The notes under the pieces are model-generated. The model was not told the origin of the DNA. It saw only the letters and a program-made list of their open reading frames with translations, and did not search any database. Shown here piece after piece: positions 1,516 to 46,300 of a stretch of DNA of 64,000 nt (position 1 is its first letter; every line of letters begins with the position of its first letter). This DNA comes from Owenia fusiformis. Lineage: Eukaryota; Annelida; Polychaeta; Sabellida; Oweniidae. The DNA lies in assembly GCA_903813345.2 (NCBI GenBank), contig CAIIXF020000006.1, forward strand, positions 7,488,989 through 7,552,988, given 5' to 3'. The position numbers and the translations under genes were made by a program.

Positions 1516-2860
1516 TTGAAATTATATTATGTATGTATGAAATAAGTTGGAATAAAAAAAAATGAAATTTTTGCTGAAGAGTGATTGCATCCATATATGT
1601 TGAAAAACTCAGGTTGATTAATTTGATTGATGTCAGTAACAGAAACCTTAGATTATTAGGGCTGTACCCAGTGATCAAAATAAAACAATTTCAACACCTT
1701 CAAATATGACGGGTGACCAAATTTTTCACCCGTCAAAATAAAATTTCACCCATCAATAATTTTTGGGTGAAGTAATTTTTTCACCCATCAAAAAATCCTG
1801 AATCGACTAGGTTTAACTTGTTGAACTAAATGTGAACTAATGCAAGGAAAATTGTCCCATGATGTAAAAGAAATAAACACCCTCTGTAAAGAAAAAAAGG
1901 TGCATGGTCCTGTATCAAAAAAAAACATTTTCAATATTTTGCATAATTTTACTAAACTCTTTGAGGCATATTGTGTAGATGTTGTAAATAATTGGTGGAA
2001 ATCTTTAGAAATTAGATGAATATTTAAAAAAGTTACCCATGGTTAAAACATTGTCTCGCAAACTCACTAATGTGCCTTTTTCCTTTAAATTACATCATAA
2101 ATTGCAATTTGTGACTATACACTGGAGTACATTTTCCTCTATGGCTAGGTTATCATTTTATATGTTGAATTTTTCATATAATTGTGAAGACAATCTCAAA
2201 CTGTTCATGACTGACAGGTTTGCAAAAAAACATTTACACAGAACACATTTTACATGAAGTTATGGTAGTGCTAAAACCCATCTAAAGCATGATTTTTAAA
2301 TGATTTTACCCCTTAAATAGTAGTGAAATTAAAGATAAGAATATGTAACCATTTTGCTCAATAAACATATTTATATTCTCATCTGACATAATTTTTGGTA
2401 TGAATAATCTAAATAAGGGATGCATAACATATTTATGGGTGATTTAGAAAGACCAAGGGTTGTAATTATCTTACAATTTCAAGTTTTTTGTTATAAATGT
2501 TATCCCTACCCCAGAACCCCTAATTTTGAACTGAAGAGAGACCTCGAATTCTATCACAAGATGGTTCTATTAATCAGACTTTCATTCTATTTAAGATGCA
2601 GTATACCATAGGTTTCTCGCCCAGACAATCAATGATGTTCCATTGTTATTGCTAATATAATATCTCACATACCATGGATACATCTTGAGATTACGCGCCT
2701 TGAACCAGACAGCCAATCAGATTGATGATAAACAAATTCAACGACCAATCAGATAACAGGGGGATTTTCCCGGTATATTCAAACTTCAGATTGAATAATT
2801 TCAGTGAAAATAATTAGATCAGTCAGCACAATCGAAAAATTAACACTTCTTTTTGCTTTG

Positions 2861-3050
2861 TTTCATAAAGGGTATTGGCAGCATTGCTGCTTCCAATGCT
2901 GCTTCCTTGGCATATGTGTCAGCTAGTTCATTGCAGTCAATTCCTAGATGGCTAAGGACTTGGTAGTGGGTTAATACATTACAGCATGCACTCGTACTGT
3001 GGACCAGATACCTAGACTTTTCAATGCATTGGGTTATATCTGGATTTGCT
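2861..3050 (-). pseudogene. retrotransposon RNase H domain remnant
   Basis: The reverse strand reads ANPDITQCIEKSRYLV, then SHLGIDCNELADTYAKEAAL. This matches the C-terminal part of RNase H from non-LTR retrotransposons, where SHxGIxGNExAD includes the last catalytic Asp. Flanking sequence is not coding, so this is a short relic, unrelated in orientation to the LINE tail at 1040-1515. Confidence 0.65.
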
Positions 3051-5258
3051 GCTTCTCAAGGTTCTTAAAATACTAATTTTGCGTTTGAATAATATAAACC
3101 TTTAAAGGTATTTTATTTCTCTTCAATGTTATTTCAATTAGGACAATAGATAGTGTGTCAATATTATATCAATTTAGACAGTGTCACTATTTTCCTTTAT
3201 TTGCTTAATGAAAGATGTCAGGCCAGTCCAACTTGAGAAAATTAATAATCAAGCCAGATACTTATCAGGAATTTATTTACTCAATCAGATTTTTACTGTT
3301 TTTTTATGGTTGAGTTAAATGATGTAGCAATTTTGATCTGACAATGATACGAATTGCTTTAAGAAGCTATAGTCCAGTTTAAACATTGCATGTGTATTTA
3401 GGCTACCAGTCTAAGAATGGATTATGTTATAGTAGCACTAAGTGTCTCAGTTCTCAAACAACAGAATCTGTTCATAAAAATTCACCATCAAAACACCATA
3501 GACAGTGACTGTTTTCAGAATATGTGTGAAGCTGAAAAGGTTCAACTAAAATTTTACCACCTGACATGCTCAAGGATGCTGTTTTATAACATTTGTATTG
3601 AACTTACACATTTTTTAAGTTAGATCCCAGCTTTGGCATTTAAATGACTGAGAAATAGGGATTGAAACTAGTTACTGTTCTAACCATTATTACAGTTGGG
3701 ATATTTGGGTTTTTTTTACTTATGGCTGGTAGCACTTTTTGATGTTTCATTTTCTAAATTATTTTACTATTTGACACTTCTGCATACTCTTTTTTAGACT
3801 CTTGAAGTAGTATTGGTGTTTAATTGATCTCCAACATTTTGATTATTTGAATTTGAGTGTCAGATGTGTCATATGACATCCAATATTTCCTTGAGACACC
3901 AAAAATAAACTGATTTACTTGAAATAAATGATAAGTTACAGAAAGATAGGAAAATGAAACACTCAAAATATATGTTTAAACCAAGATTCAAATCAAAACA
4001 AAGGTGTTGAACCGTCAATCCTGTATAAAAATGTTACCAGGTTATTGGTTAAACCTCTATTAGCTAGATTACTGAGGTAATTCTAAATTTGCTTTGGATT
4101 GATCATTTTTAACACTTAGGTAAATTATTGTTGATCCCTCAGAGTAGAGGATAAGTTCCGCATAGTAACTTCTTGCACTTATTGTCTGCCATTTTTCCAC
4201 TTTATCTTACATTTATGTTAAACAATTATCAGATTATTCTGGTTCTTAATGATTTATATTCACTTTGGGAATATGGTATTGTTACTCTAGATAGATTAGA
4301 TAGATCTAATGAAACAGTTCAGTACTCTGTTACGCAATTATTTCTATTGACCGGAATTATTGTATTAGGTAAATTTTTATGATTTTTATTTATACTTATT
4401 AAGATTTCTAATAGATATTGCAATCCTATAATTATAAAATTTGTACATGGTAATAATTAATATTCCAGAACAATTTGTATCACATATGAATATATCACTG
4501 GAAATATATTGACCACAATATTGTTAATTTCCAATAGAAAATCAGTAAATAGAAACTAATTTTTTCCGTTGTTATAAATCTTTAAAATGACTAACAAAGT
4601 ACAGTCAATGTTTCTATTGAATGCATGAATGGCCAATATTTATATATCTCGACTGATTTGTCAACAAAGGGGTTGATAGTTCTTCACCAGGCAAGCCTAT
4701 GAATGAATCTACTGTAGTTGTTTGAACTAAGTATAAGGTAAAACTTAGTGAGAGAATTCAATCAATACCTATGGAACAGCTAATAACCACGTTAATGTAT
4801 AGATGAAATATCACTTGTCGATTGACTATAAGTCTGCATAGGGCTAAGAGAATCACTTTATCTAAGTACCCAAGTACCTAGGTAAGAGTTCAGATAATTG
4901 ACATAAGAAAAAATGTATGTGTGGATGACGTACTAGTTATAACAATACTTATTAATCAAGATAAATGGGATATGAAGTGACATTTCAAGAAAAGACTTAC
5001 AAGAGAATTTGTAGCTCTACTGCTCTATAACCTTCAGATTGTATGGTACAAACTCTCAAAGACGTTATGAGGAATTACTAAGTATGGAGACATTAGTGAT
5101 ATCCATGAAGATAAAAGTTCATGATATTCTCAAGAATAAATTCATCCATTGGATTAATGCAGGAAGAATTATGGAATTATAATATATGGAATATCCATGG
5201 ATTTCCCTGATAAATTAAGTTATTTTCATGTTGTTCTCCTGATTATTAATTGGTTGCT

Positions 5259-6397: not shown

Positions 6398-9300
6398 GGA
6401 TAAAAGACGTCAGGAGCTTGACCCTAAGGACTATACGTATGATGGACTGAAGGGAGAGACTGTTGGCAAGACTCCTGGACAATTAAATGGTCAGCAGTTC
6501 ACTATACAAAACTGTGAGGTAATCACTAAATTGTTAAATATATTTTAGTATATTTGATAATATTTAAATTGTCGCCCACTTCTTGGTCAACTCGTTGTCC
6601 TCAAATTGGTCAACTTGTTGTCCTCAAATTGGTCAGCTTGTTGTCTTCTACTTGGTCAACTTGTTGTCCTCAAATTGGTCAACTTGTTGTCCTCAAATTG
6701 GTCAACTGGTTGTCCTCAAATTGGTCAACCTGCTGCCTTCTACTTGGTCAACTTGTTGCTTTCTACTTGGTCAACTTGTTGCTTTCTACTTTGTCAACTT
6801 GTTGTCCCCAAATTGGTCAACTTGTTGTCCTCAAATTGGTCAACTTGTTGTCTTCTACTTGGTCAACTTGTTGTCCTCTACTTGGTCAACTTGTTGCTTT
6901 CTACTTTGTCAACTTGTTGTCCCCAAATTGGTCAACTTGTTGTCCCCAAATTGGTCAACTTGTTGTCTTCTACTTGGTCAACTTGTTGTCTTCTACTTGG
7001 TCAACTTGTTGTCTTCTACGTGGTCAACTTGTTGTCTTCTACTTTGTCAACTTGTTGTCTTCTACTTGGTCAACTGGTTGTCCTCTACTTTGTCAACTGG
7101 TTGTCCTCTACTTTGTCAACTTATTGCTGTCTAATTGGTCAACTTGTTGTCCTCTACTTCGTCAACTTGTTGTCCTCTACTTGGTCAACTTGTTGTCCTC
7201 TACTTGGTCAAAATGTTGTCCTCAAATTGGTCAACTTGTTGCTTTCTATTTGGTCAACTTGTTGTCTTCTACTTGGTCAACTTGTTGTCTTCTACTTGGT
7301 CAACTTGTTGTCCTCTACTTTGTCAACTTATTGCTGTCTACTTGGTCAACTTGTTGTCCTCTACTTGGTCAAAATGTTGTCCTCAAATTGGTCAACTTGT
7401 TGCTTTCTACTTGGTCAACTGGTTGTCCTCTACTTTGTCAACTTATTGCTGTCTACTTGGTCAACTTATTGTCCTCTACTTGACCAACTTTGTGTTTCTA
7501 CTCATTGCCCTCTATTTGATTGACTCATTGGCCTCTTCTGGGCCCTTTACCTGGTCAGAAATGCTCAATTCATTAAATAATGACATGTCTTAAATGAGTG
7601 CAGATTCACTTTAGCTTACCAGTTTGATTTTCAATATGAAAACGTCATACCTTGGTAAGCAAAGATCAAGTGGGTGATAAAAGCAATGAAATAAACTCAG
7701 CTATTATTGCTGAACAATTGTTGGAACATCAGATTTGCCCAATTGCATATCAATAATTGCGTGATACATTTTATTGATCACTATATTGACTGACCCAGAA
7801 TTATAATATCAATGTGGTCATGTGGTTTAAAACATAAATTAGGGGAAGAAATAGAGTAAAAAAATAACTAACTACACTATCATGCAGTCAGTACTTCAAA
7901 TTATATAGAAATTTAGAAAATGGGTTGTTTGATCAAATCCAAAAAAAGTATAAGGAGATGGATATTTCTCACTTTAGAAGGGTAAATACTGTTATTAGGT
8001 GTCTAGAATATTCATGATACTTGACATAATCAGTTCCCTGATTCTCTTGTAATGTCTACATAATAACGGCAATATTGGTTTGCTAATCGCTTCATATCTG
8101 TCTCTTTAATTCACTTTATTTTGGATTTTTAAATTTGACCACAATGAGACTTTTGAGCATTTATTGTTTCTTAGGAGTTTCTGGGTAACATTTCCTGACC
8201 TGACATTGTTACCAAAGAGTAAGCTCTACCCTCACATTTCAGAGATATAGTTTCTCATGTGATTTTGATGAACAAGTCATTTGAACATGTTGCTATGCAG
8301 CCAATGGTTTAAAACCATTTGTTCAATAAATAACAAATACAGCATATTATCCCATTGTTATTTCAGTACCAGAGAAATCAAATCTACATGAATGTTAATA
8401 TTTAGGGTCATATATCTCCATAACAGATTAATATTTTAGTTTATTGGTTATTAGGTGTGGTGATATCAATTTGAAAAATAGATCTTGGATAAAACAAGTG
8501 GATAAATCCAATATCACATGATTTCTATTGTTATTTGACAGTTGTTTGGAATCAATATCAGCAGCCATCCGTTAAGTAATTCTTGCTGATGTAGATAGCA
8601 ACTTGAAAGTAAATATCAACTCAAAACTGTATGTTTTATGGAATAAAAGAATTAATATTTATGTCTATTTTCAATACAGATTTACATTTGTTATATCATT
8701 TATCCTACATCAAATATACACAGTTACAAACAGCTAACCATATCAATTTAAAAAAAAAGATTTTCTTGCGAAAGATGAAGTCATTTGATTTTTTGGGAAT
8801 TAATTATTCACAGTAATTAATATTAGCGCTCAGGCATTATTTTCACTCGTGCTCATTTTTTGTTTTATTTCATTGATAAAATAGACTAAAACCACATGAT
8901 ATTACATCCAAAATTGTTCATTGGTTAGGTATATGATTATTTAGGTTAGGTTAGGCATATGATTATTTTAGTGCCAAATGATATTACTATACATATTTGT
9001 TTATTCCAGGACTGCAACATATACATATTTGACCATGTTTCCACTGTACAAATAGATGATTGTGTCAACTGTAGAATATTTGTAGGTCCAGTCAAACAGA
9101 GGTGAGTGTGCTTAAACAGATTAATTCTAATGTTGATGTTTCAAATGTATGAGAATTGCTAAAATAGCTCAAAGTTAGTGATGAAGAAACTTTCTTTAGT
9201 CCTGATGTGGACCTTTGTCATTTACTTTAAAGTAAATGCCTGTTATAGATTATGAATAAAAAATTAATAATACTTCAGTCATTAGTGCAAGCCAGGGGAG

Positions 9301-12300
9301 TCCAAGTGATTCAATATATATTTCAGTTTGTTCATCCGTGACTGCAAAGACTGCAAATTGATGACTGCGTGTCAACAGTTTAGGACAAGAGACTGTAAAA
9401 AGATTGACATATTCCTGAGTTGCGTCACTCAGCCAATCATAGAGTCATCTACAGGCATGAAGTTTGCCTCCTTTCAGTTCTCATATCCACAGTTAGAAGG
9501 TAATATACAATTGTGCACCTCCTGGGATTTAATGTTTAGAACAATTTTGACATGAATCATGGTTTTATATTCATGAATTCCTGCATATTTTCTTTGTTGA
9601 AGACAATAATGACAATATGCTTTTAATATCAGCACCATAAGTGGGGACATATTGTTATTAGAGAATTTTCGTTATAAGTTGTTTCAAAAACGTATACGTA
9701 TACTTATAGTTTAAAGGGTCTTGTCGAACTAAAATCAATTCAAATTGATTTTCATAATCTGTACCAAGTGGGGCATAACTATTCCCGATATAGTCAAGCT
9801 CCATCATCAACTAGGGACTGCGAATACAATGTCCTTTGCTAGTGTCAATTATGAACACGATAAACTAAACGCTAGTTGACGGGTCCTTGTAGTGTACGAT
9901 AAACAAGACCCTTTAAAGTGAATCACTACATGAACGAGTCGATCATTTCAAAGTTCTCATGAAATTATAAGGTCAATTTTTAAGTTTTTACGTATAAAAG
10001 GGCCTTTATACGCAGATTATAAACTTACAGAGTTGGATCTCCGCATAGTATATGTGTGGACCTACTGACCAGAATGGCTTATTAAAATTAATCGGCTGAA
10101 TAGGCATAGTATCCAATCAAACAGCTCGACTCATTCATTAGCTGAACTAATTCTCCCTTCGTTATTTCTACAAGGTGATTCAAAACGATCATCTACAAAA
10201 AATATATTTGAGAGTAGATAAATCTGTAAAACCTGTGTGCTATATCAGCCTATTTGATTCTAGAAAACACATATGACACAACTAAACATGCTTTACATCA
10301 AGGGGGTACGGATGGTATGCCATTGGCCCTTTTTATTACCGTCCTAGGAGATATTTCCCGACGAATTAGGAAATGATGAAACACCTTGTTTATTGGGTTT
10401 ATAAGTATAAGTATACGTATAAGTTTTTAAAAAACTTATAACGAAAATTCTCTATTGTCTCCAACTTTTTATGGATGCTGTTCGATGTTTGGCATTTGGA
10501 TTTTGACATCTGTAGCAAATTTTAACAACTTCCAATAACTTGTGATTGGTGGTGATTTGATTACCAACTCCAAATTCCTAAATTACCAACTCCCTGTACT
10601 CCCTGTTAATAAGTTGAATAACCCATTTATTTAAGATGTGTTTGTTTTCCATTGTAGATCAATTTAAAAGTTCTCAAATCAGCATATACAATAATAATTG
10701 GAGCTCAATTCATGATTTCACCCCAGTTGATGGTGAAAACAACCACTCATTATTACCAGAAGTAAGAATACGTGTACTATCCATTTTATTGTCACTTTCC
10801 GCAAAAAGATATTTTCCCTCTAGAAATTGAATAAAATCTGTTTATTTATAGTGCACTGTCTTCTCTTTAAAGCAAATCTTCCATGCTTGTGTAGTATGGA
10901 TATTTAATTGCAGGCATTTTTTAACTAAAATGGCATGTTTGAGAACCATCATGGCAAATTAAGATTAGATAAGATTGACTCACAATGTTTCACATGGTGA
11001 TCTTATTGAATTGCCACTTGTCTGTCTATCCATTCGTCCTTCTGTCTGCCTCCTTCCATCCAAATGAAACCTGTCCTAACGATAATTGACACCATTGGGC
11101 TGGGCTCATACTTTTGCCTTGTGTTATTGATAAATAGACTATTTTGTCTAAGGAATTATCATGTGAGCCCATTTATTTCAATTATTTGTACCAATGTTTG
11201 ATTCATTTTGTTGAGTAGAAATGAATAATGGAATCATGAATAAATGATACAATGTGTTAACAAATTGGTCTTGTTGTAGGATGCCAAAGTAGAAGATTAC
11301 ATTCCCATACCAACCATCGAACATTTTCAAAATATGCAGCTGTCCACAGATTCAAATAAAAGTGTTGTGCCAAGAACTTTGGGATCTCGGCGGAAGCCCT
11401 CAGATCAGGTATGTCATGTTTAATGATAAGAAAAGTCAATCCTTAATGCAACAGGGTTACCCATAATGCAATACATTTACCAATAATGCAATTAGTTAAC
11501 CCATAATACAATGGAGGTGATTCAATGTCTGTGGCACTAGATTCCGAGATAATTTGGTTGCTTATTTCTGAGAGGGACACAGTTTTCTTTTACACATTTT
11601 GTATTTAATACATGTCATCTGATAAATTAACTTTAGTTGCTTTGATAAATATTTGTTGTTGTTGTTGGTATTTCAGAGTTGCCTTGTAGTTTTCTTCAAT
11701 GATGGAGGTTCGCAAGACAGGGCTAAGAGATTCATAGAGGCAATGAGGCAATATGTAAGTACAATTTGAATATTACTGTATTGTACTAACAAGAACCGCA
11801 TTGTTTAGTCACTATTTTATGATCAAAGCTGTTAAGTGTTAGCAACTGTAACAGTTGTGACACATTTGTAGGTGGTGACATTTTCAAATAGTTGTCTCCA
11901 GCGGTTAATTCTTATTCTTTCTTTAACTTGCCATCATAAAAATACATATGAAAGCCTAATTGTAGTATATTGCGTTCACTGCATGTGTTACTTCAATCTA
12001 ATTATAGGTAGAGAAATAAAATACTGTACTATACTGTAATTATGTAGGAACCTGCGAATAGCACTTAGTTCTGCAAATAGCTTTAACAATGTAATCACTA
12101 TGATGTTGCAGCAATTCATCATGAAAATTGATCTTGAATTGATGACTTTATGCGATAATTCTGTGGCGTTTTAAAAGGGATTCCTTAATTGCATATCATG
12201 TTTTAATTGTTCAAACAACTTTTTTGCTATGTTATTCCAATCTTAAAGCCCTTGCAGTTTCCCAAATCACTTTATATTTATTCTTACTAGATTGATAAAG

Positions 12301-15300
12301 CAAGGAAAACCTACTGAAAAATATTGTTAATTAAAAACCTACAAAAGAGGACAATTAGCTATGATATGTATAATTTAGCCAAACATATTGAAAATTTGAA
12401 CAAAAGTTTTGCATCCCACTCCACCTAGTAAATTGTATAGAAAATTCAGGAAACTAGGCACTAATTTAAATCAATTTAGAGAGATGAAACCTTGAAACAT
12501 TAAAAATCGGATAAAGAAGAAATCCTTTACCATTGGGAAATAGAAGGGAATTGAATAGTCTTCCGTCTTCTATTTTAGAGATAAAATGTGTATAGTACAT
12601 TGGGATGGGGGGGGGGGGGGGGCTTAAATAGGTATTGGAGCAGGACTAAATGAAATAAAGCATGGAATTCAAATGTTACTGAAATGTTTCAGGACTGTGT
12701 GCTGGTTCAGACCAAAGAGATGTCATTAAAATCAGAAGATGCTGAGAGAGTATTTGGTACTGATGCTTATAATGCAGTTGCATCAACAGGTAAGTTAATG
12801 CCAGGGATTATGAGAATGAAAACACCATTCTTTCATTTATAGTATGCGCCAAATCGCTTCCAAAGTGGCTTAGTTAGTCTAAACCGATGTTGAGGTAGAT
12901 TACTAAGAAGTGGCCCATAGTCATTAAAGATTGGTTCATTGACTTTTCATTTTCACTTGTCTGCAGTTAAAATGGTGACACGAAAGTGCTAAACGGCTTG
13001 CCCCAAGGTGCAACCGTCAAAAATATGAGTTTTAAAAAATTCATGTTTTTCAAATAATAGCAGTGAGTATATGAAATAGGAGGCATATTTGATATTGATA
13101 TGTATGATAGTCTATTTGGGTGTGGTCATTTTTTATTAAAAACAACAATGGTGAAGAATTATACATTACTGACCTTGAAATGCCATTTTAATTCAAAAGT
13201 CACTGTTGCTAATGATAATATTCCTATTTTACTTATTCAATGTTTTCTAAATGTTTCAATTACCATTATGTTAGTTTTTGGCAAAGTAAATAATTATAGG
13301 GGTCACACAAGGATCCACTTTATTTAGAACTTTTTCATATTTAGTGATGATTTCAAAAAATACCAAGTTTAACACAATTTTGTTTGTTAAATATTAAATA
13401 GAATGATGGTATTGTGTTTGTTTTATTGTTTCAACAAAAAAATCGCAATTCATTGCTCTTGCAATTAGAGCTACAGGGCATATACAAGTTCAAAAAGTCT
13501 TCAATAAAGTTGATCCTTGTGTGAGCCCTATGATTATTTACTTTGCCAAAAATGAATATAACGATTATTCAGATATATAAAAATCCTTTAATGTTAAATA
13601 GGAATACAATGATTGACTTTTGAATAAAAAGGCATTACACATGTACACATGTAGTTGTTGCAGTAAAATTACCACACCAAAGTAGACTATCTTTCCATAT
13701 TAATATCAAATGGGCCTTCTATTTGCATTTTACTGAAATTATTTGTAACAAAAGTTTATTGTTTTTGTTCACCGATGTTTGTCAGAGTGATACCTGTAGC
13801 AGCTGCACTCGACTGATATGCAACAAGATATATGTGAGCTTTCATTGCAACATTTACATTTAGAACAGTTACAATTTTACTTAGTCTGATAGAAAATTAA
13901 ATAACTGAATTATATTTCTTTGAGTTTATTCAATTTGAACATTACTTTTACAATACAGATACCTTCGTTTTGAAACATAAGCAGTAATTAAATTTTCAAA
14001 CGGTCAGTTTTCAACTTTGAATGTTTCATTTTTGTTCAAAAGTGTATTCTACAAAAGTCAAGGTCATTTTAAGGTAAAATGTCAATATTTAGGTAGTTGG
14101 CTAAACCAATGATTAGGTGACCTGAAGTCAAGGTCTGAATAGATCAAGGTAATTTTGAGGTCAAAGGTCAATATCTAGCAAGTTGACATGAGAACAATTG
14201 TGACCTTTGGCGACCAATGATAAGGTGATTTCAAGGTAATTTCAAGGTCAAAGGTCAATATCTAGGTCATAGGTAGTTGGCTACTGTGGGTCTTCAGTAA
14301 CATTTGATCACCAAAGATAAAGTGACCTCCGGTCAATGTCACTGTTTTATGGCTCAAGGTCATCTCAAGGTCAGAGGTCAATATCTGAATATTTGGCATT
14401 TTGGGGATGCTGCTTCATGTGAGGACCCATTGATATGTGTTCTGAGGTCAAGGTCATTTAAACAAGGTCAAAATCTCTGTATTTGGCGTTTTGAGGCCCT
14501 GGGGGCTGCTATGACCCTTGGCAACTCATGCTAAGGTGACATGAGGTCAAAGTCAATATCTATGGTTCAAAATTATAATAAAGTCAAAGGTCAATATCTA
14601 GGTTGTTGGCTCGTTTGAGGCTACATTGACATTTGATCACCAATGATAAAGTGACCTGAGATCAGTGTCATTGTTATAGGTCAAGTTCAGAGATCAATAT
14701 CTTAATATTTGGCGTTTTGGGGCGGCTGCTGCACTTGGCTCCATTGAAACGTGACCTAGGGTCAAGGTCAATCTAAGGTCAAATTTCAATATCTTAGTGT
14801 TTGGCGTTTTAAGGCCACAGGGGCTGCTGTCGTGATGTGGCCCTTGGCGACTCATGATAAGGTGACACGAGGCAGTCATCATTTAATGGTTCAATTCAAG
14901 ATCATCTCAAGGTCAATATCTAGGTATTGGTGTTTCAAGGCACTCGGGGGTTGCTGTGACGCTTGGTGACACATAACAATGGTGACACATTTCAATTGAC
15001 ATTTCAAAAGTAATACTCGATCATTTCTGTTTTATCATATTAATTTTAATAAAATTTGCCAATTCGAAGTGAAATTATAACAGAAGAGAGGTTATCCAAA
15101 TATGAGGTCATATTAATGACTGCACTCAGTAATCTTCAGTCAAGCTGACGGAGTTTTTCATGAAAGAGTTACTTTCTGTTGTGGTTTTAAATTGAATAAG
15201 TATAAGCAGGTGCATTTTCAAAAATGCAAATTTAAAGCAAATTTCGCAAAATTTAGTTATTGATATATAGAGATAGTCCATTACTAGGGTTTGTTTATTC

Positions 15301-16984
15301 TCTTAAAAACAATTATGGTACAAATTTGGTACTTCTGACTATATAATGCTTTTTTATTCAGAAGTCAATTATATTATTCTTATTTTGACTATCAAATGAT
15401 TTTCATATATCCGAATAACCGTTATATTAGTTTTTGGCAAAGTAAATAATAGTAGGGATCACACAAGGATCAACTGTATTGAAGGTTGGTCATACTGGTA
15501 TATGCCCTGCCGCTCTAAGATCAAGAGCAATGAATTGTGATTTTTCAGTTGAAACAGGGAAACAAACACATTATCATTAATTTGTTTAACATTTAACAAA
15601 TAATTTTCAGTTAAACGTAGTAATTTTTCAAAATATCACTAAATATGAAAAAGTTGTAAATAAAGTGGATCCTTGTGTGAGCCCCATTATTATTTACTTT
15701 GCCAAAAATGAATATAATGGTAAGTGTAATATATAGAAAACATTGAATAGGTAAAATAGGAATATAATTAATAACAACCGTGACTTTTGCATTAAATGGC
15801 ATTTTAAGGTCAGAAATGTATAATTCTTCAATATTATTGTTTTTAATAAAAATGACCACACCCAAATGGACTATCATACATATCAATATCAAATCTGCCT
15901 CCTATTTCATATATTCGCTGCTATTATTTGAAAAAAAAGATTTTTGTCAAACTCATCTTTTTGCCGGTTGCACCTTGGGGCAAGCCGTTTAGCCCTTTCG
16001 TGTCACTTTTTTGAGTGCAGACAAGTAAAAATGAATAGTCAATGAACCAATCTATAATGACTATGGGTCAAATCATAGTAACCTACCTCAACATCAGTTA
16101 ATGGGATTTTCTGGAGTTTTGGCGCACACTATTAGTACACATTTGTATTTACACAATTTGCATATATTGTATGTTACCATGTTTTATGGATTAATAACCC
16201 ATCTTCTTAAGTGGCAATGGTGAAAAGTGAATTCCAAGCAATATACCAATAATATATGGAACAACATCTCAACTGATAAGATTAAACACGTTTATACTAG
16301 ATTATACTAAGTTAAATTACGCACCGGCGTTCATTAATCAATCTGCTGTATCAATTTTTATGTTCTTCTTTATCTTTGAAAGGCAGTCAACAACATGGAC
16401 CCTGTTTCTTGAAAGTCTTGATGATTATGACTTGTAATTGAAATGTTACTATTGGTAAAATAGTGAAAAAATGTTTCCTTTAAGATGAAAACTAGTACAT
16501 GTAGTGTCAATTACGAGGTGTCTTTTTGGTGTCAAGGAAAAAGCATGAGTTCTCTTATCATTTGACTCTTTTAAGTCCTACTAAGTATACAATGGTGGTA
16601 ATGTTTTAATTCTTCCAGCTCCAGTAATATGGTGAGTACAATTCTCCAATATTAACTCTTTCAGGTCCAGTGATTGGCTTTGAGTACAATTCTCCAATAT
16701 TAACTCTTTCAGGTCCAGTGATTGGCTTTGAGTACAATTCTCCAATATTAACTCTTTCAGGTCCAGTGATTGGCTTTGAGTACAATTCTCCAATCTTAAC
16801 TCTTTCAGGTCCAGTGATTGGCTTTGAGTACAATGGTGATGGTGTGGTAGAGCGGTGCCAGGAACAAGTGGTGACTGTATCACAGGGAACAACAGGGATG
16901 GTTTTCGTCAGCCAGAATCATAAACTTGCTGCTCAGCAGATAGACAACTTTTATAACTTTGCTGAAATGCAGATGGCGGTCTAG
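6398..16984 (+). CDS. RP2: RP2/XRP2 homologue, ARL3 GTPase-activating protein (8 exons; first exon not certain)
   Basis: Spliced exons: 6398-6518, 9010-9101, 9327-9499, 10658-10761, 11280-11408, 11677-11754, 12693-12789, 16809-16984 (stop TAG 16982-16984). All junctions are AG/GT and the phases agree throughout, giving 322 codons plus stop. The product matches vertebrate RP2 along its length: [57 protein letters not shown] and [16 protein letters not shown] form the TBCC-type beta-helix. The end, [12 protein letters not shown] to [13 protein letters not shown], is the NDPK-like domain. The Arg of QQFR corresponds to the known arginine finger and the Glu of TQPIIES to the second catalytic residue of ARL3-GAP activity, so the enzyme looks intact. 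Known role of the family: stimulates GTP hydrolysis on ARL3, which releases lipidated cargo in ciliary trafficking. Exon A starts mid-codon, so an upstream exon ending in phase 2 is required. The usual myristoylated/palmitoylated Met-Gly-Cys start was not found in a suitable place. The last acceptor is multiplied (see 16633-16834). Confidence 0.95.
6583..7485. repeat. 23-bp minisatellite in an RP2 intron
   Basis: About 39 copies of a unit like TTGGTCAACTTGTTGTCCTC plus 3 bp, with two main variants (..CTCAAATT and ..CTTCTACTT). The array begins about 65 bp after the donor of exon 6398-6518. Since 23 is not a multiple of three and the unit lacks stops in every frame, frames of 150-309 aa are open across it; none is a gene. 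Confidence 0.95.
9661..10452. mobile_element. TA-flanked TIR element (MITE) in an RP2 intron
   Basis: Termini GAGAATTTTCGTTATAAGTT and its complement AACTTATAACGAAAATTCTC form inverted repeats flanked by TA on both sides (9659-9660, 10453-10454). This is the hallmark of Tc1/mariner-type insertion. Subterminal GTATACGTATAC-like stretches and an inner inverted pair (AAAGGGTCTTGT at 9713 and ACAAGACCCTTT at about 9904) add secondary structure. There is no transposase, so it is non-autonomous, 792 bp. Confidence 0.8.
12839..16132. mobile_element. 3.3-kb element with long inverted terminal arms in the last RP2 intron
   Basis: The termini ATAGTATGCGCCAAA and TTTGGCGCACACTAT are inverted, and similarity continues inward for about 500 bp (12839-13330 against 15640-16132). 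It passes through shared blocks such as GGCTTGCCCCAAGGTGCAACC and its complement at about 15970. A sub-block containing CACACAAGGATC occurs four times in alternating orientation (near 13305, 13515, 15460, 15670). The centre holds the AGGTCA-rich array. No transposase frame is visible. The left end lies only 50 bp from exon 12693-12789. Confidence 0.75.
14050..14960. repeat. degenerate AGGTCA-rich repeat array
   Basis: Diverged repeats of roughly 150 bp, each containing CAAGGTCAAAGGTCAATATC-like and TATTTGGCGTTTTGGGGC-like blocks. AAGGTCA/AGGTCA hexamers recur many times, including direct repeats with one-base spacing (AGGTCAAAGGTCA near 14158, 14244). It sits in the core of the 12839-16132 element. 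Coding frames in it (for example 14304-14534) are incidental. Confidence 0.7.
16633..16834 (+). repeat. 48-bp tandem repeat multiplying the 3' splice site of the last RP2 exon
   Basis: About four copies of a 48-bp unit. Each has 27 bp of intron (a TATTAAC or TCTTAAC branch-site-like motif, a short pyrimidine tract and CTTTCAG) followed by the first 21 bp of the exon (GTCCAGTGATTGG...). Acceptor AGs precede exon starts at 16665, 16713, 16761 and 16809. Because 48 is a multiple of three and the unit has no stop, the exon stays open from any of the four acceptors. Each extra unit would encode [16 protein letters not shown]. The ten bases TGAGTACAAT occur both in the intron before the first copy (16633) and in the exon after the last copy (16825), which suggests that microhomology seeded the duplication. 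Confidence 0.95.
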
Positions 16985-20597: not shown

Positions 20598-22390
20598 ATT
20601 TTCATCACTTTCACCATTAAAGAGATTGATTTGTATCCAAATATGTTACCCGAATGTTAAAAGTAACATCCTGTACTGAAAAGCTAGTCAGTCTCTAGCA
20701 AATATATTCAGCAGCTCGAATAATTGAGTGAGAATTCCGTCACTTCAGCAACCAGGACGTTATCTGTTGAATTTCATTACGTCTTGGTTGCGTTCTGTTA
20801 AATTAATGTCCTATTTGCTAAAGCAAGGGGTTTCTCACTCGATTATTAGAGCCCATGTATATATATATATACTCCTGACTGATTCGCTTTTTCGTAACTG
20901 GATGTTACTAGTAAAGGTACGTTCACACCAACGGCGCTTTGATGGCGCTTTAAAGCGGCTTGTAAAGCGGCACCAAAGCGTAACAAAGCTTAATTAAAGC
21001 GTTGGGGTCGTAATAGGTCGTAGAAAAGCTCGGAAGTAAAGCTGGATATTCGGCAAGAGCGCTAAAAAATTTAAACTGTTTAAGCGTTCGCACCAACGGC
21101 GCTTTGATGGCGCTTTAAAGCGGCTTGTAAAGCGGCACCAAAGCGTAACAAAGCTTGATTAAAGCGTCGGGGTCGTAATAAGTCGTAGAAAAGTTCGGAG
21201 TAAAGCGGAATATTCGGCAAGAGCGCCAAAAAATGTTAAACTGTTTAAAAAATTTGGGCGTTCTGTTACGAATTGCTTAAAGCGCCGTGAGCGTATCAAA
21301 GCTTAAAAAACCATAACAAAGCTCAGCAAAGCTTGACCCAAAGCGTAGGAAAGCTTAACAGAGTTTGGTTTAAAGCGGGGACCCCAGTCTCTTCACGGTC
21401 TGTTATCACTGTACACGCTTCGTTAAGATGCCTCAGGATTTGTTACGATCTGGCATGAAGATCTGACACAAGGTCAGACGCTTTCATCAATATCTGACAC
21501 TCTTTGTTACGCTTTCATGAAGGACTCTCAAGCTTTCCAGCAAATTGAGACGCTTACATCAGGAATTGAAACACTTTGTTAGGCTTTGTTACGCTTGACA
21601 AGCTTCCTCATGCTCTCTCACGCTCTTTCACGCCGTGCGTCAAACGTCATGTCTTATTCAGATAGGTCATGCTCTGGTCCATCTGGAATTTCTGGATCTT
21701 GTTGTTCTGCCATCGTGTTCTCGAGTCAAAGATGCAATGGTTTTATGGATCTACTGCATCTTTATATAGTCATTGGATCAAAAGCGGCATGAAATCGGCG
21801 ATCTCGACATTTTCCAATGCGTGACAGAGCTGAACAGAGCGTAATAACAATGCACAACAGAGCTTGACAATCGTATCAGAGCCTGATTCAAAGCGTCATA
21901 ATCGCATCAAAGCGTAATAATGCTTATCAAAGCATGGTTTCAAGCGTAACAAAGCCTGGTCACAGCGTGAGGAACCTATCAGCGCTATGTTAAGCTTTCC
22001 TACGCTTTGGGTCAAGCTTTTCTGAGCCTTGTTACGGTTTGTTCAAGTTTGATACACTCTCGGCGATTTAATCAATTCGTAGCAGAGCGCCCAAAATTTT
22101 TAAACAGTTCAAATTTTTTTGGCGCTCTTGCCGAATATCCCGCTTTACTCCGAGCTTATCTAAGACCTATTACGACCCCACCGCTTTAATCAAGCTTTGC
22201 TACGCTTTGGTGCCGCTTTACAGGCCGCTTTAAAGCGCCATCAAAGCGCCGTTGTTATGAACAAAAATGACAAAAGTGACGGCGCTTTGTTCGCCGATTT
22301 AAAGCGTGGCATTCGCCGTTGGTGTGAACATAGCTTGGTAAAATATTTGGATACAAATCAACCTCTTTTTGGTGAAAATGATGAAAATAA
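20598..22390. mobile_element. nested foldback complex rich in AAAGCG
   Basis: The outer arms match in inverted orientation (TTTGTATCCAAATAT at 20630 against ATATTTGGATACAAA at 22342). Inside are a smaller foldback (about 20661-20911; AGTAACATCC...GGATGTTACT) and a larger one (20921-22329). The larger one starts GTTCACACCAACGGCG and ends CGCCGTTGGTGTGAAC. It carries a direct duplication of its left part (about 20921 and 21087) and dozens of AAAGCG/CGCTTT hexamers. It is GC-richer than its surroundings. No transposase seen. Confidence 0.8.
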
Positions 22391-25355: not shown

Positions 25356-28300
25356 TCACACAAGTTCTCCCTGGTTTGAATCATTTCCAACTGTCCCATC
25401 AGCTTCAGTAGTTTTACTTCCCTGATCATCTTTGTTTTCTTGATCATCATCCTCCTCATCATCATTTTCCATTAACTGTCTTGCCATTTTAATGGCATAA
25501 TACTCATTATAATGCATTTTTCTTTTTTCTTTGAATTTTGTCTTGGCAGCTGAAAATGAAGACACTTCAGTAATCATACAGTGAACAGCATAAATATAAT
25601 CTACATATATTTTGGTTGATATAAAACACTCTCAATGCAACAAAATCACCTTTTGGGATCAGCTTGTGGTAATATATGCTAAACATAAATAAACATACAA
25701 CAGATTTTGAATAAAAAGCTCCAAACAGCTAGAAAGTGTTCTCTCAATAAGGAATGATATTAGTTAACAAGGCATTAACATGAAAAAGTGTCACCACCAG
25801 GAATTGGAAGTTTGGAAAACTTTGTCACAGACACAGAATCCTGAACACCAACCACCTATCAACCACTGAATACTGAAACCATCCACAAATGTATGTCATC
25901 ACTTTTGGTGGTGGCATAATAACTGCAACGTTACCTTTTTGATCTTCTGTTAATACTTCTGGTTCTTCATCTGAAGACTCTTCATTCTCTGAAGCATTAC
26001 GTCGAGGACTTTTTTCTTCTAACCTGAAAATATAAGATTATACTTTTAATGGACATGCATGTCTAAATAGACTCTTTTAAGTGAACACCTTCTTTAATGA
26101 AGACACCAGCTTGTGAGCATCTTCTTTATAGGGAACACATTCCAAACTAAGTCTATCTCCTCTGAATACCTTGTCTCGTGAACACCTTCTTCCGTGAGCA
26201 TCTCCTTTAGGGAAAACATTCTCAACTAAAACCTTCTCAAGTTAATACATTCTCTTGAGTACCTTCTCTACAAACACCTCTTTAGTGAGTATCTTTGACT
26301 TTGTTGAGCAAACAACTTCTCAAACAAACACCTTCTCTACTGAAGTGTTTATAACCATAAGCCTTCTTTTTCCTCCAACACAATTTCCTCCAAACAGTGC
26401 TCGTGATATTCACAAATTTTCTTATATTCAGAGTGAATGATCTATTAGAATGTAGACTCAACTTGCACATTAATTAGATTTTCTTTCACAATGTTGTTAT
26501 TAGATAAGAGAAGCTAATTTCCTTATTTACTGCACATCTGGAATAATTAATACTTCAATTTTTAGATTCTACAATGATATTGATGACTGGTAATGTCATG
26601 TCATATTATAATGCCCATCTAAAAATAATACAGTGGCCATGATTTAAAAAAATGAAATGAGTGCATTGAGCTTAGAATACAGACAATTCATTCAAATGTT
26701 AGAGAGAGAGAAATCTCAGAATACTTGTATTAGCAGAACAGTCTTGAAGCAAGCCCATGTGGCTCATATACCCCAATACAAACAAGCAGAATGATATAAA
26801 CTTAAAGGGGATCGAAGCAGAACAAGATACAACTGAAAAATACTTCTCCATTGGTGACTGTCTCTTTCAATGATGTAAAGTTAAATTAATACAAATTGTA
26901 ACATGAGGCAAGCATTCACTGGTCCAGTGAATTTTACAAATGACATTACCACAATTGGTAACACATAAATGACACAACCATTGGTAACACATAAATGACA
27001 CAACCATTGGTAACACATAAATGACAAAACCATTGGTAACACATAAATGACCCAACCATTGGTAACACATAAATGACCCAACCATTGGTAACACATAAAT
27101 GACACAACCATTGGTAACAAATAAATGACAAAACCATTGGTAACACATAAATGACACAACCATTGGTAACACATAAATGACAAAACCATTGGTAACACAT
27201 AAATGACCCAACCATTGGTAACACATAAATGACCCAACCATTGGTAACACTTTAATGACACAACCATTGGTAACACTTTAATGACACAACCATTGGTAAC
27301 TGGAAAATAAGTCAAGTTTGTCTTGCATCAATCTCAAAGGATAGTTGTCTCCGAAACAACAGAATCTCCAAACATAATTGAATCGATTCCTACCAGGGTG
27401 GAGTGTCTTTTTTCACATTAGCCCTTAGCATAGGATTTAATCCTGTTTTCAGTTTAACTATTAGATGCTAAGTAAAAATATGGATAATAAAAATGAACTG
27501 CAGAAATTCCCAACTGTGCAAATCATTCAGACAATATGTCGTATATCATTTTTATGGATGTCGATTAATTTCATAAAGTCACTTCATTTGAGAATAATAT
27601 AAAGTCATTCAGTCTTGTAGTCTGTAGTCAGAGGATGCTCACGGCAAAGCTTATATTTATTTATGACATTACATCGTATGGTAATTTTTCTACTTGTTTG
27701 GTGTGTATGGACTTGTTGTTATATTTTCATGGAAACTGTAAACTTGAGCAAGTTTAAAAGTAATAGATCAGACCAAAGTCAGCTAGAGAGAGATTTTCAA
27801 AATAGATAAACAATAAAAAGTTCATAAATGGATATAATTTACATTATGATTCTCATCACATTTTTATCTTTTCAAATTAACAATCCTTGTGTGATATCTA
27901 GTGATGTAAATTTTTGCAGAATATCAATTGTTAATAATATATTGTTAAAGATTGTTCTGTATATGATACTTTCTCCGAGATTCACCTGTTTTATTTATAT
28001 GCATATAGCACAAAAACACTGATTAATATGCTACTTTTGATCATATCTGTTGGAATTAATGTCACATATTCTGATTTGATATACTGAACATTTATCAGGC
28101 TTTATTTCACAGATGTATTTTTCTCACCATCTCATCAAACAGCTAATTATCATTGCATACAGTTATTAATCTGAATACAGTAAAACCTGTCTTAATGAAC
28201 AACTCTCTCTAGCGAACAACTGTGTCTAGTAAACACCCTTTTTCTGCACATACTCTATTGACTTCTGTATAGATTACCCTCTCTGTAGTGAACACCTAAT

Positions 28301-37300: not shown

Positions 37301-40300
37301 TCAAAATACAACTGCAGATGGGCACGTCAACCCCCCCCCCCTACCTGCTTGAGATATGCCTTGGAAATAATATTTCATATTATGATTTAGATTTTGCCCT
37401 TTGTCAACCCTCTCTCCCCTACATTTTCAAATGTCCTCATATGAGACCATGGTCTTAGAATTTGTCCCTATAGGTTTAACATTGATGACTAACATAATAA
37501 ACAGATATCACTTTTCTACCTTGATATATGGTAAGCTATTAATATTCTAAGCTCGTCTGTCCTGAAGAATATTCTAACGACGCAATAAAACTGTCAATAA
37601 ATGAACAGTATAATATCTTTTTTAGGCTTGATGTCATAAAATGACATTTATTACAAAATATATTATATAATCTGTAACATATTTTGACAAGAAACTGCAA
37701 TTTCAAGGAGGTTAGATGCTTTTTCTTGAAGCATGAAATACAACTCAAATAACCCAGATCCCAGTCAATAGTTACCAGTTTCACCACCAGTTGGATAATT
37801 AGGGTCAGAAAAAATGGCAGAAGAAAATATATTTGACTTTTTGTGATTTTACAATATGTAATGCAGGAATTATTTCTTCCTGCATCAAGTCTATTCTCAT
37901 ATTCTAATCAAAGATATTTTCCCTAAATGGAGAACTCCATGAAAGATTTAACTGCTTCCTCACAAGGAATCTACTTGTTACCACATCATAATATTATATT
38001 ACTTCTGTCACATTGCACATGTCCAATTTTTCTTGATTTTTCTTTATCTATTTTTCTATTATCTATATCAATCTAAAATTGAGCCATCAATTAAACTATG
38101 ATGTGTAACTTTACATACTAATGTCAAAAACTTAATATTGCTGTATCTAAATATCAACAAGGCACAGACGTGAACAATATCGTACCTAAAACACAGCATT
38201 GTGGTCTTGTTGACCAAGAAAGCAAGATGGCCGCAGAAAAGTTAATCAGCTCTAGAACTTATCACTGTGTAACATATGTAAAAATTTGAACGGTTTGGCT
38301 GGAAACCTGTAGACAAGTCTTGAAAGTGAAGATTTTAGGACGGAAAATCCAAAATGGCCACCTTAAAATTTACCCAGAATGCCCAAAAACTAATCAGTTC
38401 TTGACGTTGATATGTAGAAACATCCCTGAAAATTTCAGATGAATCCCTCAAAAGGTTTGGCTAGAAACCTGTAGACAAGTCTTGAAAGTAAAGATTTTAG
38501 GACGGAAAATCCAAAATGGGCACCTTAAAATTTACCCAGAATGCCCAAAAACTAATCAGTTCTTGACGTTGATATGTAGAAACATCCCTGAAAATATCAG
38601 ATGAATCCCTCAAATGGTTTGGCTGAAAACCTGTAGACAAGTCTTGAAAGTGAAGATTTTAGGACGGAAAATCCAAAATGGCCACCTTAAAATTTACCCA
38701 GAATGCCCAAAAACTAATCAGTTCTTGACGTTGATATGTAGAAACATCCCTGAAAATTTCAGATGAATCCCTCAAATGGTTTGGCTGGAAACCTGTAGAC
38801 AAGTCTTGAAAGTGAAGATTTTAGGACGGAAAATCCAAAATGGCCACCTTAAGATTTACCCAGAATGCCCAAAAACTAATCAGTTCTTCACGTTGATATG
38901 TAGAAACATCCCTGAAAATTTCAGATGAATCCCTCAAATGGTTTGGCTAAAAACCTGTAGACAAGTCTTGAAAGTGAAGATTTTAGGACGGAAAATCCAA
39001 AATGGCCACCTTAAGATTTACCCAGAATGCCAAAAAAGTAATCAGTTCTTGAGGTTGATATGTAGAAACATCCCTGAAAATTTCAGATGAATCCCTCAAA
39101 TGGTTTGGCTGGAAACCTGTAGACAAGCTGAAAAGTGAGACGCCGCCCGCCGCCCGCCCGCCACCCACCCGCCGCCCGCCCGTCAAGCTGACTACAATAT
39201 CGTACCTTTTGTTAGGTACGATAAAAACTACAATACTTTGGACAAATAAACTCTATAATTGGTTCATACAAACGTCAACAAACTGCTTTATATTAAATTG
39301 TAAACGAACTCTACATTGTGCCATTTTATTGATTAAGCTAATGCTGCTTGGAATATTGGGTTTACCACAGATATAGATATTTCACAAGATTTCCAATAAA
39401 TCCTTATCCCTGATGAAATACTGAATTCCTTATGATAGATTGTTGATGAATTATATTGACAGGCATAAATAACACAAGTGACTCTTATCAAGAGGTTAAT
39501 GTCATGTACACTCTTTAAATTTGATATTTCTTTGATATATATAGACGTTCTTTCATGGGAGGGATGGAATATGAATTTTATTCAGACGAAAAATATGATA
39601 TTTTCTGGAGGAAAAATGTCATATTCCATCACAACAATCAACAACCCATTTCTGATAATAATTTCTGAGCCTTATTCATTTTCAAGTTTGATTTCTCATC
39701 ACCCAATAATGGTGACATAAAATTATACAACTTGTTTTATTAACAAGTTCGTTAAAAGAACAAAAATATAAAAATCAAGAGAAATCCCCAGGGACTAAGT
39801 TCTGCGATAAGGTTTTATGGCAGATTAAGGATCTGATATGGGATTTTGGGTGACAATGGATCTGATACAGGATTTTTCGAATATCAATTCTATTCCCCGT
39901 TTATTTCCCAGGGAAAACATGTTATTACGGAATAAATACATACAGGGTGTTCCAAAAGTAACAGGACTGGTGCTGTCATTTTGTCAATTTTGCACCAAGT
40001 GTCTTCAAATTTTAACAAATTGTACTTTGATGTATTGCAACTAAAATTGTATAGTTTCAGAAAAAATGATGAAATTCGGGTAGAGTTGTGGTTACTATAG
40101 TAACATGACATCACAATACCCGGGGCAACTTTTTCCTGAAAATGTGATATCTAACATTTTTGTATAACTGAAGATGGTATCTAATTCACCTATTATAATA
40201 CAGCATTTCTTATTAATTTTGTTAGTTGCTTTGTTGTAATGGTGTTGCCATACAACTCAGATTCAAGTATAATTTCATAATAATAATAATATTTATTCAA

Positions 40301-43300: not shown

Positions 43301-46300
43301 TTCTAATTTTATGTAAACACACCTATAAGGTGAAATTGAAACAACCTTTTCATTTCATCTTGTCCAATTTTCTAAACGTACGGAGGTCCATTCAAAGTTG
43401 GTTGCAGATCTTAAAAGCAATATTTAGATGAATTATTTGTATGGTTATTAAATCACTTTCAAATCCAGAATCATGCAAATGCAAAAACCTTGAAATGTGA
43501 ACATCTCCTAATCTGAACACTTTTACCAGGTCCCAATGATGTTCCAATTAGACAGGTTTTACTGTACATTTAGACCTGTATTTAAGGTAGAACTTCAATG
43601 TCCACTGCGCAGTCAGTTTGCGCATCCCTAATGCCAAAAACGAAAGGGAATAAAACATTGATACTTCTTTATTTCAAAAATTTCCATTGGTTGTTCAAAT
43701 CCTGCATGTCACAATTGATTAGCGCGCTGGATTTTGAATGGGTTTTATCCTCCGAGAGAGTGGGTTTGAAACACTCATGTTGATTTATGAAGACATTTTT
43801 TGGGCAATGAGACATTCTATTATGTAATAATAATATTTCTCCACTGTTTCATAATATTCAAACTTATTTTATTTTACTTGTTTGTCAAAAGATCTGGATG
43901 TTGAATTTTCAGATATATTTTCCTAAATAATTTGGGTTTCCCAAATAATGATCACAATTATTTTTTAATAGAATCTGAATTGTGCAATTTTTGTATTTGA
44001 AAAAATGCATTTTCTCATTGAAAGCCATGTTAAATTAAAATATGTTTCTAGAAATAACCAGACTGACGATTTTTCTGGTTTTCAATGATTATGTCATTCA
44101 TCTTTCACCTATATTTTTCAAGAAAATCTGAATTGTAGAAAAAATCAATCAAGAGTGAAGTTCTACCTTAATATAACAATTGTATCCAGGAGCAATTAAA
44201 GGAAATACAGTACTTTGATATTCAATTCTATTTCTACCTGAAATGAAGAATATTGACAGCATATTGATTATTGAATCAAGAATCAATCTTATGTGAATAT
44301 TCAAGGGAAATAAACAAACTCAATCAATAATACAACCTTGGGTTCTTACAGATTAAATGCCTGTATTTGATAAACAGGCTTTTTCATTTATATTTTCATA
44401 TATCACACATATAGACAGATAATTATCACATCTTACCATTCCCACTATGTTTGTGGTCGTACGCGTCAATCATTGGTCAGTCAATGTTTTTACAAAGGAG
44501 AAAATACTACGCATTGCATGCTTAAATGACCTACCTTGATGCATTCTTGAGTATTTAAGAATCCTTTTTATGTAGTTGAACGTTTTTGAATCAGAAATAT
44601 TAAGCACTTTCCAATATGGCGGAAGCTAGTCAGAGAGGGATTCCCCTTATGACTGGTGCATGCCGGGACCGGATGTACTACTAAATGGAGGAATTTGACA
44701 GTTGAAATAAGTTCATTATTACATGCAACCAATTGCTATCAAAAACGAAAATCTCTTCATTCTACCGATAAATCCATACAATTGGCAATTCAACTCAATA
44801 AAAAGAATTCTAAAATACTAAGAAATGTAACGAGGTAGGCCATTTAAATGTGCAATGCGTAGTTCATTCTCCGACATTGTAGAAACATTGACTGACCAAT
44901 GGTTCGCATGTATGACCACAATGTAATGTGGTCGTAAGATTCGATAAAGTTATAACTCTTCCCATCTTATGTGTTCATGATCACAGAATATGCCTCATAA
45001 TATCAGAGCATGTTGCAATAACATCCCGGGGGTTTCACTCCAATATACCTCTTAATACCTATGTGCCGCGCCAAAGACCCCCTTATTGAGCATTTTTTCC
45101 ATGTCAATTTCTATTTCTACCTGAAATGAAGAATATTGACAGCATATTGATTATTGAATCAAGAATCAATCTTATGTGAATATTCAAGGGAAATAAACAA
45201 ACTCAATCAATAATACAACCTTGGGTTCTTACAGATTATATGCCTGTATTTGATAAACAGGCTTTTTCATTTATATTTTCATATATCACACATATAGACA
45301 GATAATTATCACATCTTACCATTCCCACTATGTTTGTGGTCGTACGCGTCAATCATTGGTCAGTCAATGTTTTTACAAAGGAGAAAATACTACGCATTGC
45401 ATGCTTAAATGACCTACCTTGATACATTCTTGAGTATTTAAGAATCCTTTTTATGTAGTTGAACGTTTTTGAATCAGAAATATTAAGCACTTTCCAATAT
45501 GGCGGAAGCTAGTCAGAGAGGGATTCCCCTTATGACTGGTGCATGCCGGGACCGGATGTACTACTAAATGGAGGAATTTGACAGTTGAAATAAGTTCATT
45601 ATTACATGCAACCAATAGTCCTATTCGCGTTAGGAAATTACTGGTCATTAACATAAATATTTCCCGCAATGCAACACGATAAAATGGACAATTTTCTATT
45701 GGTCCGCAAAACACAACGTCATAGGCATTATCCCGATCCATCATTAGTACATATGTATAATAATATTCTATAATCCAGACAATAATTAGAAAAGAAGATG
45801 GATATTCAATTTGCTTCGATTATTTTTTCTATGGTGTCTGAGCAAGTTTCGGGAACTGGGCAACTTCCGGGAAATCTGTGACGTCACTTGAATTTTAAAC
45901 TTTGGATTTTGATGATTCTGGTGAATATATTTTAAAAAACTTGTCAAATGTCTTTATAATGATCATATCTATCGTATGTGCAAATATAATTCATGATAAA
46001 CCTCTAATAAAGTCACAATGCGTCATTGAAAAACACAGCCAATGTTATTCCAATGGGAAAGTGCCCGGATGTTGAGAAAGTTGTACCACGTAACTGAACT
46101 CTCCCACGCGGAGATAAGAATATTTTGCACGTTAAAAGTTAGCGCGTATAGGTATATTGCTATCAAAAACGAAAATCTCTTCATTCTACCGATAAATCCA
46201 TACAATTGGCGATTCAACTCAATAAAAAGAATTCTAAAATACTAAGAAATGTAACGAGGTAGGTCATTTAAATGTGCAATGCGTAGTTCATTCTCCGACA

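Follow-up and report, generated by a model that had tools for sequence, protein, structure and literature searches.

Four in-frame copies of the last splice acceptor in an RP2 gene: a probable mirage-type minisatellite

The 3′ splice site of the last coding exon of an RP2 gene is present in four in-frame copies, carried by a 48-bp tandem array that spans the last intron–exon boundary; the array itself is beyond chance. We read it, with a rough probability of 0.6, as a mirage-type minisatellite—nearly neutral, with mainly one acceptor spliced, more likely the exon-proximal one at 16809. Positions are those of the window, the whole 64-kb stretch of DNA analyzed. A preliminary description had reported a repeated acceptor at the last RP2 exon, and the array returned by Tandem Repeats Finder (TRF), with its four acceptors in place, confirms that observation. 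Of its overall interpretation, the gene, the acceptors, the frame, and a plausible change in copy number hold, whereas use of several acceptors found no support, placement at a first strand looks wrong, and origin by microhomology is doubtful.

Eight exons of the gene were located on the + strand (Table 1), and joined they form a single open frame that ends in a TAG at 16982–16984; the first exon was looked for upstream of 6398 and not located. The joined exons match human XRP2 (2bx6_A) at 399 bits over 320 residues (31–350; E = 1.3e-118), so the identification as RP2 stands. On the joined protein, Pfam reports TBCC (E = 7.3e-47) and no NDPK family at E up to 0.01; because of the latter, the C-terminal NDPK-like domain is named here by collinearity with XRP2. 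The TBCC domain followed by an XRP2-collinear C-terminal NDPK-like domain is the arrangement that defines the RP2 family. The Gly codon at the last junction is split between the donor exon, which supplies one base, and the last exon, which supplies two. Human RP2 probably has an intron at the same codon; a literature passage search for that intron gave nothing, and no argument here draws on it.

Table 1. Coordinates of the RP2 exons, the repeat units, and neighboring sequence elements in the window
Feature	Positions	Strand	Basis
RP2 exon	6398–6518	+	first part matched to XRP2
RP2 exon	9010–9101	+	match to human XRP2
RP2 exon	9327–9499	+	match to human XRP2
RP2 exon	10658–10761	+	match to human XRP2
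RP2 exon	11280–11408	+	match to human XRP2
RP2 exon	11677–11754	+	match to human XRP2
RP2 penultimate exon, phase-1 donor AACAG/GTAAGT	12693–12789	+	sequence, match to human XRP2
RP2 last coding exon, collinear form, TAG end	16809–16984	+	sequence, match to human XRP2
48-bp × 4.2 array across the last RP2 intron–exon boundary (intron 3′ end, exon 5′ end)	16633–16834	+	TRF, units in register
Unit 1, acceptor AG 16663–16664, exon start 16665, 48 extra residues	16633–16680	+	sequence, translation
Unit 2, exon start 16713, 32 extra residues	16681–16728	+	identical to unit 1
Unit 3, exon start 16761, 16 extra residues	16729–16776	+	identical to unit 1
Unit 4, exon start 16809, 0 extra residues, collinear with human XRP2	16777–16824	+	sequence, XRP2 alignment
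Probable decayed fifth unit, acceptor-like TTCTTCCAG, exon-like start 16619	16585–16632	+	alignment to unit, translation
Possible sixth, more decayed unit, weak	16546–16578	+	26/36 alignment columns identical
TACTAAG, branch-point-like, putative branch A 16584	16579–16585	+	read from sequence

TRF describes the array by a period of 48, 4.2 copies, 99% matches, 0 indels, and a score of 397. Each unit runs TGAGTACAAT TCTCCAATATTAACTCTTTCAG up to the intron–exon boundary, which was placed by homology and consensus, and continues with GTCCAGTGATTGGCTT; every unit thus holds an intron end (TTAAC, a short pyrimidine tract, CAG) and then the start of the last exon. Among the four full units the sole base difference is an A>C at 16795 in unit 4, synonymous if coding (ATA>ATC, Ile). 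The array measures exactly 4 × 48 + 10 bp, has the 10-mer TGAGTACAAT at both edges, and overlaps the exon by 26 bp. The exonic part of the unit, previously put at 21 bp, measures 16 bp downstream of each AG; counting the 10-bp TGAGTACAAT as exon brings it to 26 bp.

AG/GT acceptors stand in all four units, with exon starts (16665, 16713, 16761, and 16809) where the preliminary description had placed them. Joined to the donor at 12789, each keeps the frame: The exons found give an uninterrupted RP2 of 322, 338, 354, or 370 residues, every extra unit adding 16, as had been claimed. The count of four holds for AG/GT but not for AGs as such, since every unit carries further ones, a CCAG six bases on (in frame) and a TGAG. 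The exon starts that these second AGs of CCAG would define (16671, 16719, 16767, and 16815) keep the frame and, as tandem acceptors, could drop two residues.

To judge the open frame, we estimated its chance expectation. No stop was met in 276 of 529 27-nt stretches sampled from this RP2 intron, nor in 260 of the 402 frame readings taken on 27-mers that are pyrimidine-rich and end in AG (+ strand, 18000–60000); multiplied by 1/3 for a period divisible by three, these fractions give an open in-frame array by chance in ~17–22% of cases. Frame-keeping alone is therefore not evidence of acceptor use. Only the form without insert, from 16809, is collinear with human XRP2, whose chain 2bx6 has no insertion at this place. 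The insertion point lies immediately N-terminal of GPVIALEFNGDG of human XRP2, at about residue 295 of chain 2bx6_A. SCLVVLF and GFFLVQTKEVS, which look like strands of the C-terminal domain, both come before it in the XRP2 alignment. The earlier placement at the first strand of the NDPK-like domain therefore looks wrong, with strands as they appear from sequence.

The branch-like site reported earlier corresponds to TTAAC, which is present in each unit; only 9 nt separate its A from the unit's own AG downstream, and the next unit's AG is 57 nt away. A spacing of 9 nt is short for a metazoan branch site, so a unit may use a weaker branch site or TTAAC may serve the downstream neighbor. A TTAAT at 16609 lies 55 nt before the first clean AG. 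The best-looking branch sequence is the TACTAAG at 16579, which falls outside a yUnAy listing because its last base is G; its putative branch A is 34 nt upstream of the AG of the decayed unit described below, the acceptor that it would suit best. The GTCCAG at the AGGT of the unit is, by eye, a poor donor. At the left array edge, ATG/GTGAGT (16632–16637) is a good donor-like word that with an acceptor at 16619 would delimit a 13-nt, frame-breaking exon. The branch and donor-like signals yield no prediction of which acceptor is used.

The start of the array at 16633 holds for the clean units but does not mark a clear left edge, because the flank at 16604–16632 is unit-like. These 29 bp (TTTTAATTCTTCCAGCTCCAGTAATATGG) resemble the unit's TATTAACTCTTTCAGGTCCAGTGATTGG, and clear resemblance is confined to them. 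The best local piece has 22/27 columns identical (score 27), reached by 5 of 2000 shuffles under the local scheme; elsewhere on the + strand, three of 2539 windows, overlapping one another near 15800, score 28, and 0 of 2539 windows on the other strand reach 27. By wrap-around alignment, the 100-bp flank 16533–16632 scores 44 against the unit, a value attained by 0 of 2000 dinucleotide shuffles and by 1 of 5076 other 100-bp pieces (at 26201, score 52); six other RP2 acceptor regions score 15–29. The 48-bp piece 16585–16632 scores 34, and none of 2538 other pieces reaches this (best 33). With position fixed, an in-register test found the flank equaled at 2 of 4113 anchor points and by 2 of 400 acceptor-like controls, the controls being the first 400 met from the + strand, each at the best of five offsets. 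The neighborhood of the array was excluded on both strands for the wrap-around controls and on the + strand only for the in-register controls. The region 16585–16632 also figures as copy five of the repeat in a listing, at 61% over a 96-nt stretch of which clean array makes up half.

The one higher-scoring piece falls in 26160–26335, a pyrimidine-rich region with loosely periodic CTTCTC and GAGTA words; its alignment to the unit is gap-rich (117/190 columns identical), and it is probably an unrelated degenerate repeat. A candidate sixth unit farther left (Table 1) is weak, as an equal or higher score was reached by 22 of 2538 other 58-bp pieces. Still farther left, 16433–16532 has no resemblance to the unit (2319 of 2538 pieces score as high).

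These comparisons give moderate support to 16585–16632 as, probably, a decayed fifth unit. Read from the 12789 donor it translates as A-P-V-I-W-stop: The exon-start PVI survives and the frame is lost. The clean four copies would then probably be the recently homogenized core of an older array. Since a decayed fifth unit is probable, the array may be older than it appears, and this makes doubtful the origin put forward previously, in which the TGAGTACAAT microhomology at both edges explained the repeat. The 10-mer is indeed at both edges, and one duplication event between two TGAGTACAAT words already in place, with no older array, would agree with the exact length of 4 × 48 + 10 bp. A chance 10-mer would not, however, predict in-register continuation of the repeat through the 29 bp before 16633, at 22/27 columns and with only 2/4113 anchors as good. 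The 2/400 acceptor-like controls soften this objection, as the likeness of the flank may partly be that of any acceptor, and we keep the single duplication as a tentative account of the origin only, with a real minority chance of being correct.

On the preferred reading, a mirage-type minisatellite, events would have run as follows. A short tandem array would by chance have come to span the last RP2 intron–exon boundary and so multiplied the 3′ splice site, its copies presumably products of slipped replication or unequal exchange. That the clean copies were made or homogenized recently is suggested by their single difference in 192 bp; the outermost 5′ copy, to judge from the flank, probably escaped homogenization and decayed within the intron. 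Since the 48-bp period is divisible by three and the intronic portion of the unit is stop-free, RP2 is readable with any of the four acceptors, and the array would be tolerated for that reason. The spliceosome would most likely use mainly one acceptor, more likely 16809, yielding ordinary RP2; we favor 16809 because of the amphioxus precedent and because it gives the sole XRP2-collinear form. The upstream copies would then be intron and would contribute, at most, low-level in-frame insert isoforms. On this analysis we infer both the dominance of one acceptor and the near-neutrality of the array.

The array has two features by which mirages are recognized: It lies across an exon–intron boundary with splice signals inside the units (CAG/GT in all four), and its 48-bp unit falls within 10–160 bp. 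Mirages also have homogenized inner copies beside a diverged boundary copy; here the clean units are 99% identical, and the 5′ decayed unit, which has moderate support, may be such a boundary copy. Seven distinct TRF arrays in the window score at least 300, and minisatellites are therefore common in this stretch.

Several other repeats were observed in the window. The RP2 intron that begins after exon end 6518 contains, 64 bp on, a 23-bp × 39.5 minisatellite (6582–7490, 86% matches) with long repetitive open frames that are probably not genes. Elsewhere there are a 162-bp × 5.2 array at 38292–39138 (96% matches, period divisible by three), a 34-bp × 17.7 minisatellite at 52082–52684, a 26-bp × 13.3 minisatellite at 26954–27300, and a 165-bp × 2.0 duplication at 20920–21248 (93%) that is rich in AAAGCG words.

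Searches for relatives of other kinds were negative within their scope. Viral contigs contained no relative of the RP2 last-exon protein, nor did a 22-bp piece of the 48-bp unit match any of them exactly, prokaryote genome contigs contained no relative of the TBCC-exon query, RNA-family and tRNA scans of the 64-kb window found nothing, and Pfam reported no family at E up to 0.01 for the open frames at 58752–59093, 45454–45819, and 2843–3055 (minus strand). For the read-through ORF 16628–16981, AlphaFold2 run with no alignment gave a mean pLDDT of 56.5, with regular strands predicted through the repeat part; Foldseek of this model against the PDB returned 0 matches at E up to 0.001 and, at E up to 10, 48 with a best value of 2.8. 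We draw no conclusion from these models, since spurious beta arrays are a common outcome when perfect repeats are folded alone.

Two other uses of the acceptors would turn the repeats into protein. Were the 5′-most clean acceptor, 16665, constitutive, the array would be exonic and RP2 would always carry 48 additional residues as three 16-residue repeats. The first acceptor after an intron is often preferred among equal copies, classic duplicated-acceptor constructs often favor the 5′-most one, the read-through frame is open from 16628, and the sole substitution among units is synonymous (ATA>ATC, n = 1). Human XRP2, however, has no insertion at this place, and 48 residues would probably split conserved strands, so that we regard constitutive use of 16665 as unlikely. 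If instead all four acceptors were used, RP2 isoforms with 0, 16, 32, or 48 extra residues before GPVIGFEYN would result, the ladder of protein lengths that had been proposed earlier. Four near-identical acceptors, all in frame and stop-free, would allow it, and the passages of PMC2812944 on human boundary repeats report that 66% of the novel introns formed by them also have transcripts with the repeat in an exon. Set against this are the ~17–22% prior chance of an open in-frame array, the likely cost of an insert immediately before a conserved strand of a folded domain, and statements in PMC3087553 and PMC3902484 that amphioxus mirage arrays leave regular mRNA undisturbed. The ladder is thus possible but unsupported, the closest published cases being said to keep regular splicing, and we consider it rather unlikely; the birth of a protein repeat, as the array had been described, is one possible outcome and not an observed state.

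The fuller proposition, that all four acceptors are used appreciably, that the GPVIGFEYN strand is repeated one to four times, and that copy number varies between individuals, is quite improbable in our estimate. Variation in copy number, which had also been suggested, is by itself plausible, given that a published amphioxus array, BflGb6, is described with 6 vs. 3 units between haplotypes (PMC3087553, mirage section). Nor do we attach much weight to an assembly artefact concealing a true copy number of one or two. A 500-N run at 60765–61264 is a scaffold gap, so the assembly is scaffolded, and near-perfect short arrays can be mis-sized; yet 202 bp lies within the span of ordinary reads, unit 4 has a base difference of its own, the flanks on both sides are distinct from the clean unit, and the probable decayed unit speaks for the array being genuine and older. 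Such an artefact appears very improbable.

Four near-identical, frame-neutral acceptors in RP2 form a clean native counterpart of the classic duplicated-splice-site experiment. Should the units appear in transcripts, a protein repeat would be caught in the act of its birth from an intron, and if the ladder is true, the gene would offer a natural system for the change from intron to protein repeat and for the choice of the spliceosome among near-identical acceptors. If transcripts exclude them, mirage-type minisatellites would extend to another gene and probably to another animal group. The array is also a warning for gene prediction, in which three spurious coding repeats could be called.

Repeated splice boundaries have already been named, in several published cases, and the RP2 array is a further example rather than a new phenomenon. 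No RP2 gene with a repeated acceptor appears in the titles or abstract starts among the matches listed, in searches that mostly did not name RP2 and covered few subscription papers. The 37-bp VNTR of human factor VII intron 7 lies at an exon–intron border and repeats the splice site, on the donor side, whereas the RP2 array repeats the acceptor side; a literature search for this VNTR gave no paper. Amphioxus GC is ~41%. Compared with amphioxus mirages the RP2 array concerns a different gene and, with the window's GC at 32–35%, probably a different animal.

In potato RdRp, a tandem duplication across an intron–exon boundary made a new intron, supported by 106 RNA-seq reads according to passages of PMC4974935. 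As in the RP2 array, the duplicated segment there comprises branch site, pyrimidine tract, AG, and exon start; in potato a cryptic exonic donor was recruited (PMC4974935, same passages), whereas the clean RP2 units have no good donor by eye. Set beside the Rogers model of intron gain by tandem duplication, the RP2 units have an AGGT each, with GTCCAG a poor donor by eye; the GTGAGT at 16632 beside the decayed unit could act as a donor, but the 13-nt exon would shift the frame. In human segmental-duplication genes, variable tandem repeats at exon–intron boundaries are described as altering splicing or lengthening proteins (PMC2812944); those are recent primate paralogues with transcripts, whereas the RP2 array belongs to a single gene.

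Amphioxus supplies the mirages themselves, described in PMC3087553 as minisatellites over exon–intron boundaries with units of 10–160 bp. The cases given there and in passages of PMC3902484 are Adh3, the globins BflGb6 and BflGb9, and TnC, with PGBD5 likened to them; in these texts the name has so far been applied to cephalochordates. In PMC3087553 the authors take their RT-PCR and the Adh3 data to suggest that regular splicing is left undisturbed, and it is likewise said to be unaffected in Adh and TnC (PMC3902484). In lancelet PGBD5, imperfect repeats lie over splice sites and normal splicing was inferred, the transcript across the repeats being described as unconfirmed (PMC3902484). The RP2 array keeps every one of its four clean units in frame and free of stops, a property that the mirage section of PMC3087553 does not raise. 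In BflGb6, minisatellite-like units run from the 3′ end of an intron into the start of the following exon, haplotypes carry 6 and 3 units, and inner units are homogenized while boundary units are not (PMC3087553, same section). The RP2 array shares with BflGb6 the repetition of intron 3′ end and exon start, and with amphioxus mirages at large the tandem repeats across an exon–intron boundary that multiply splice signals.
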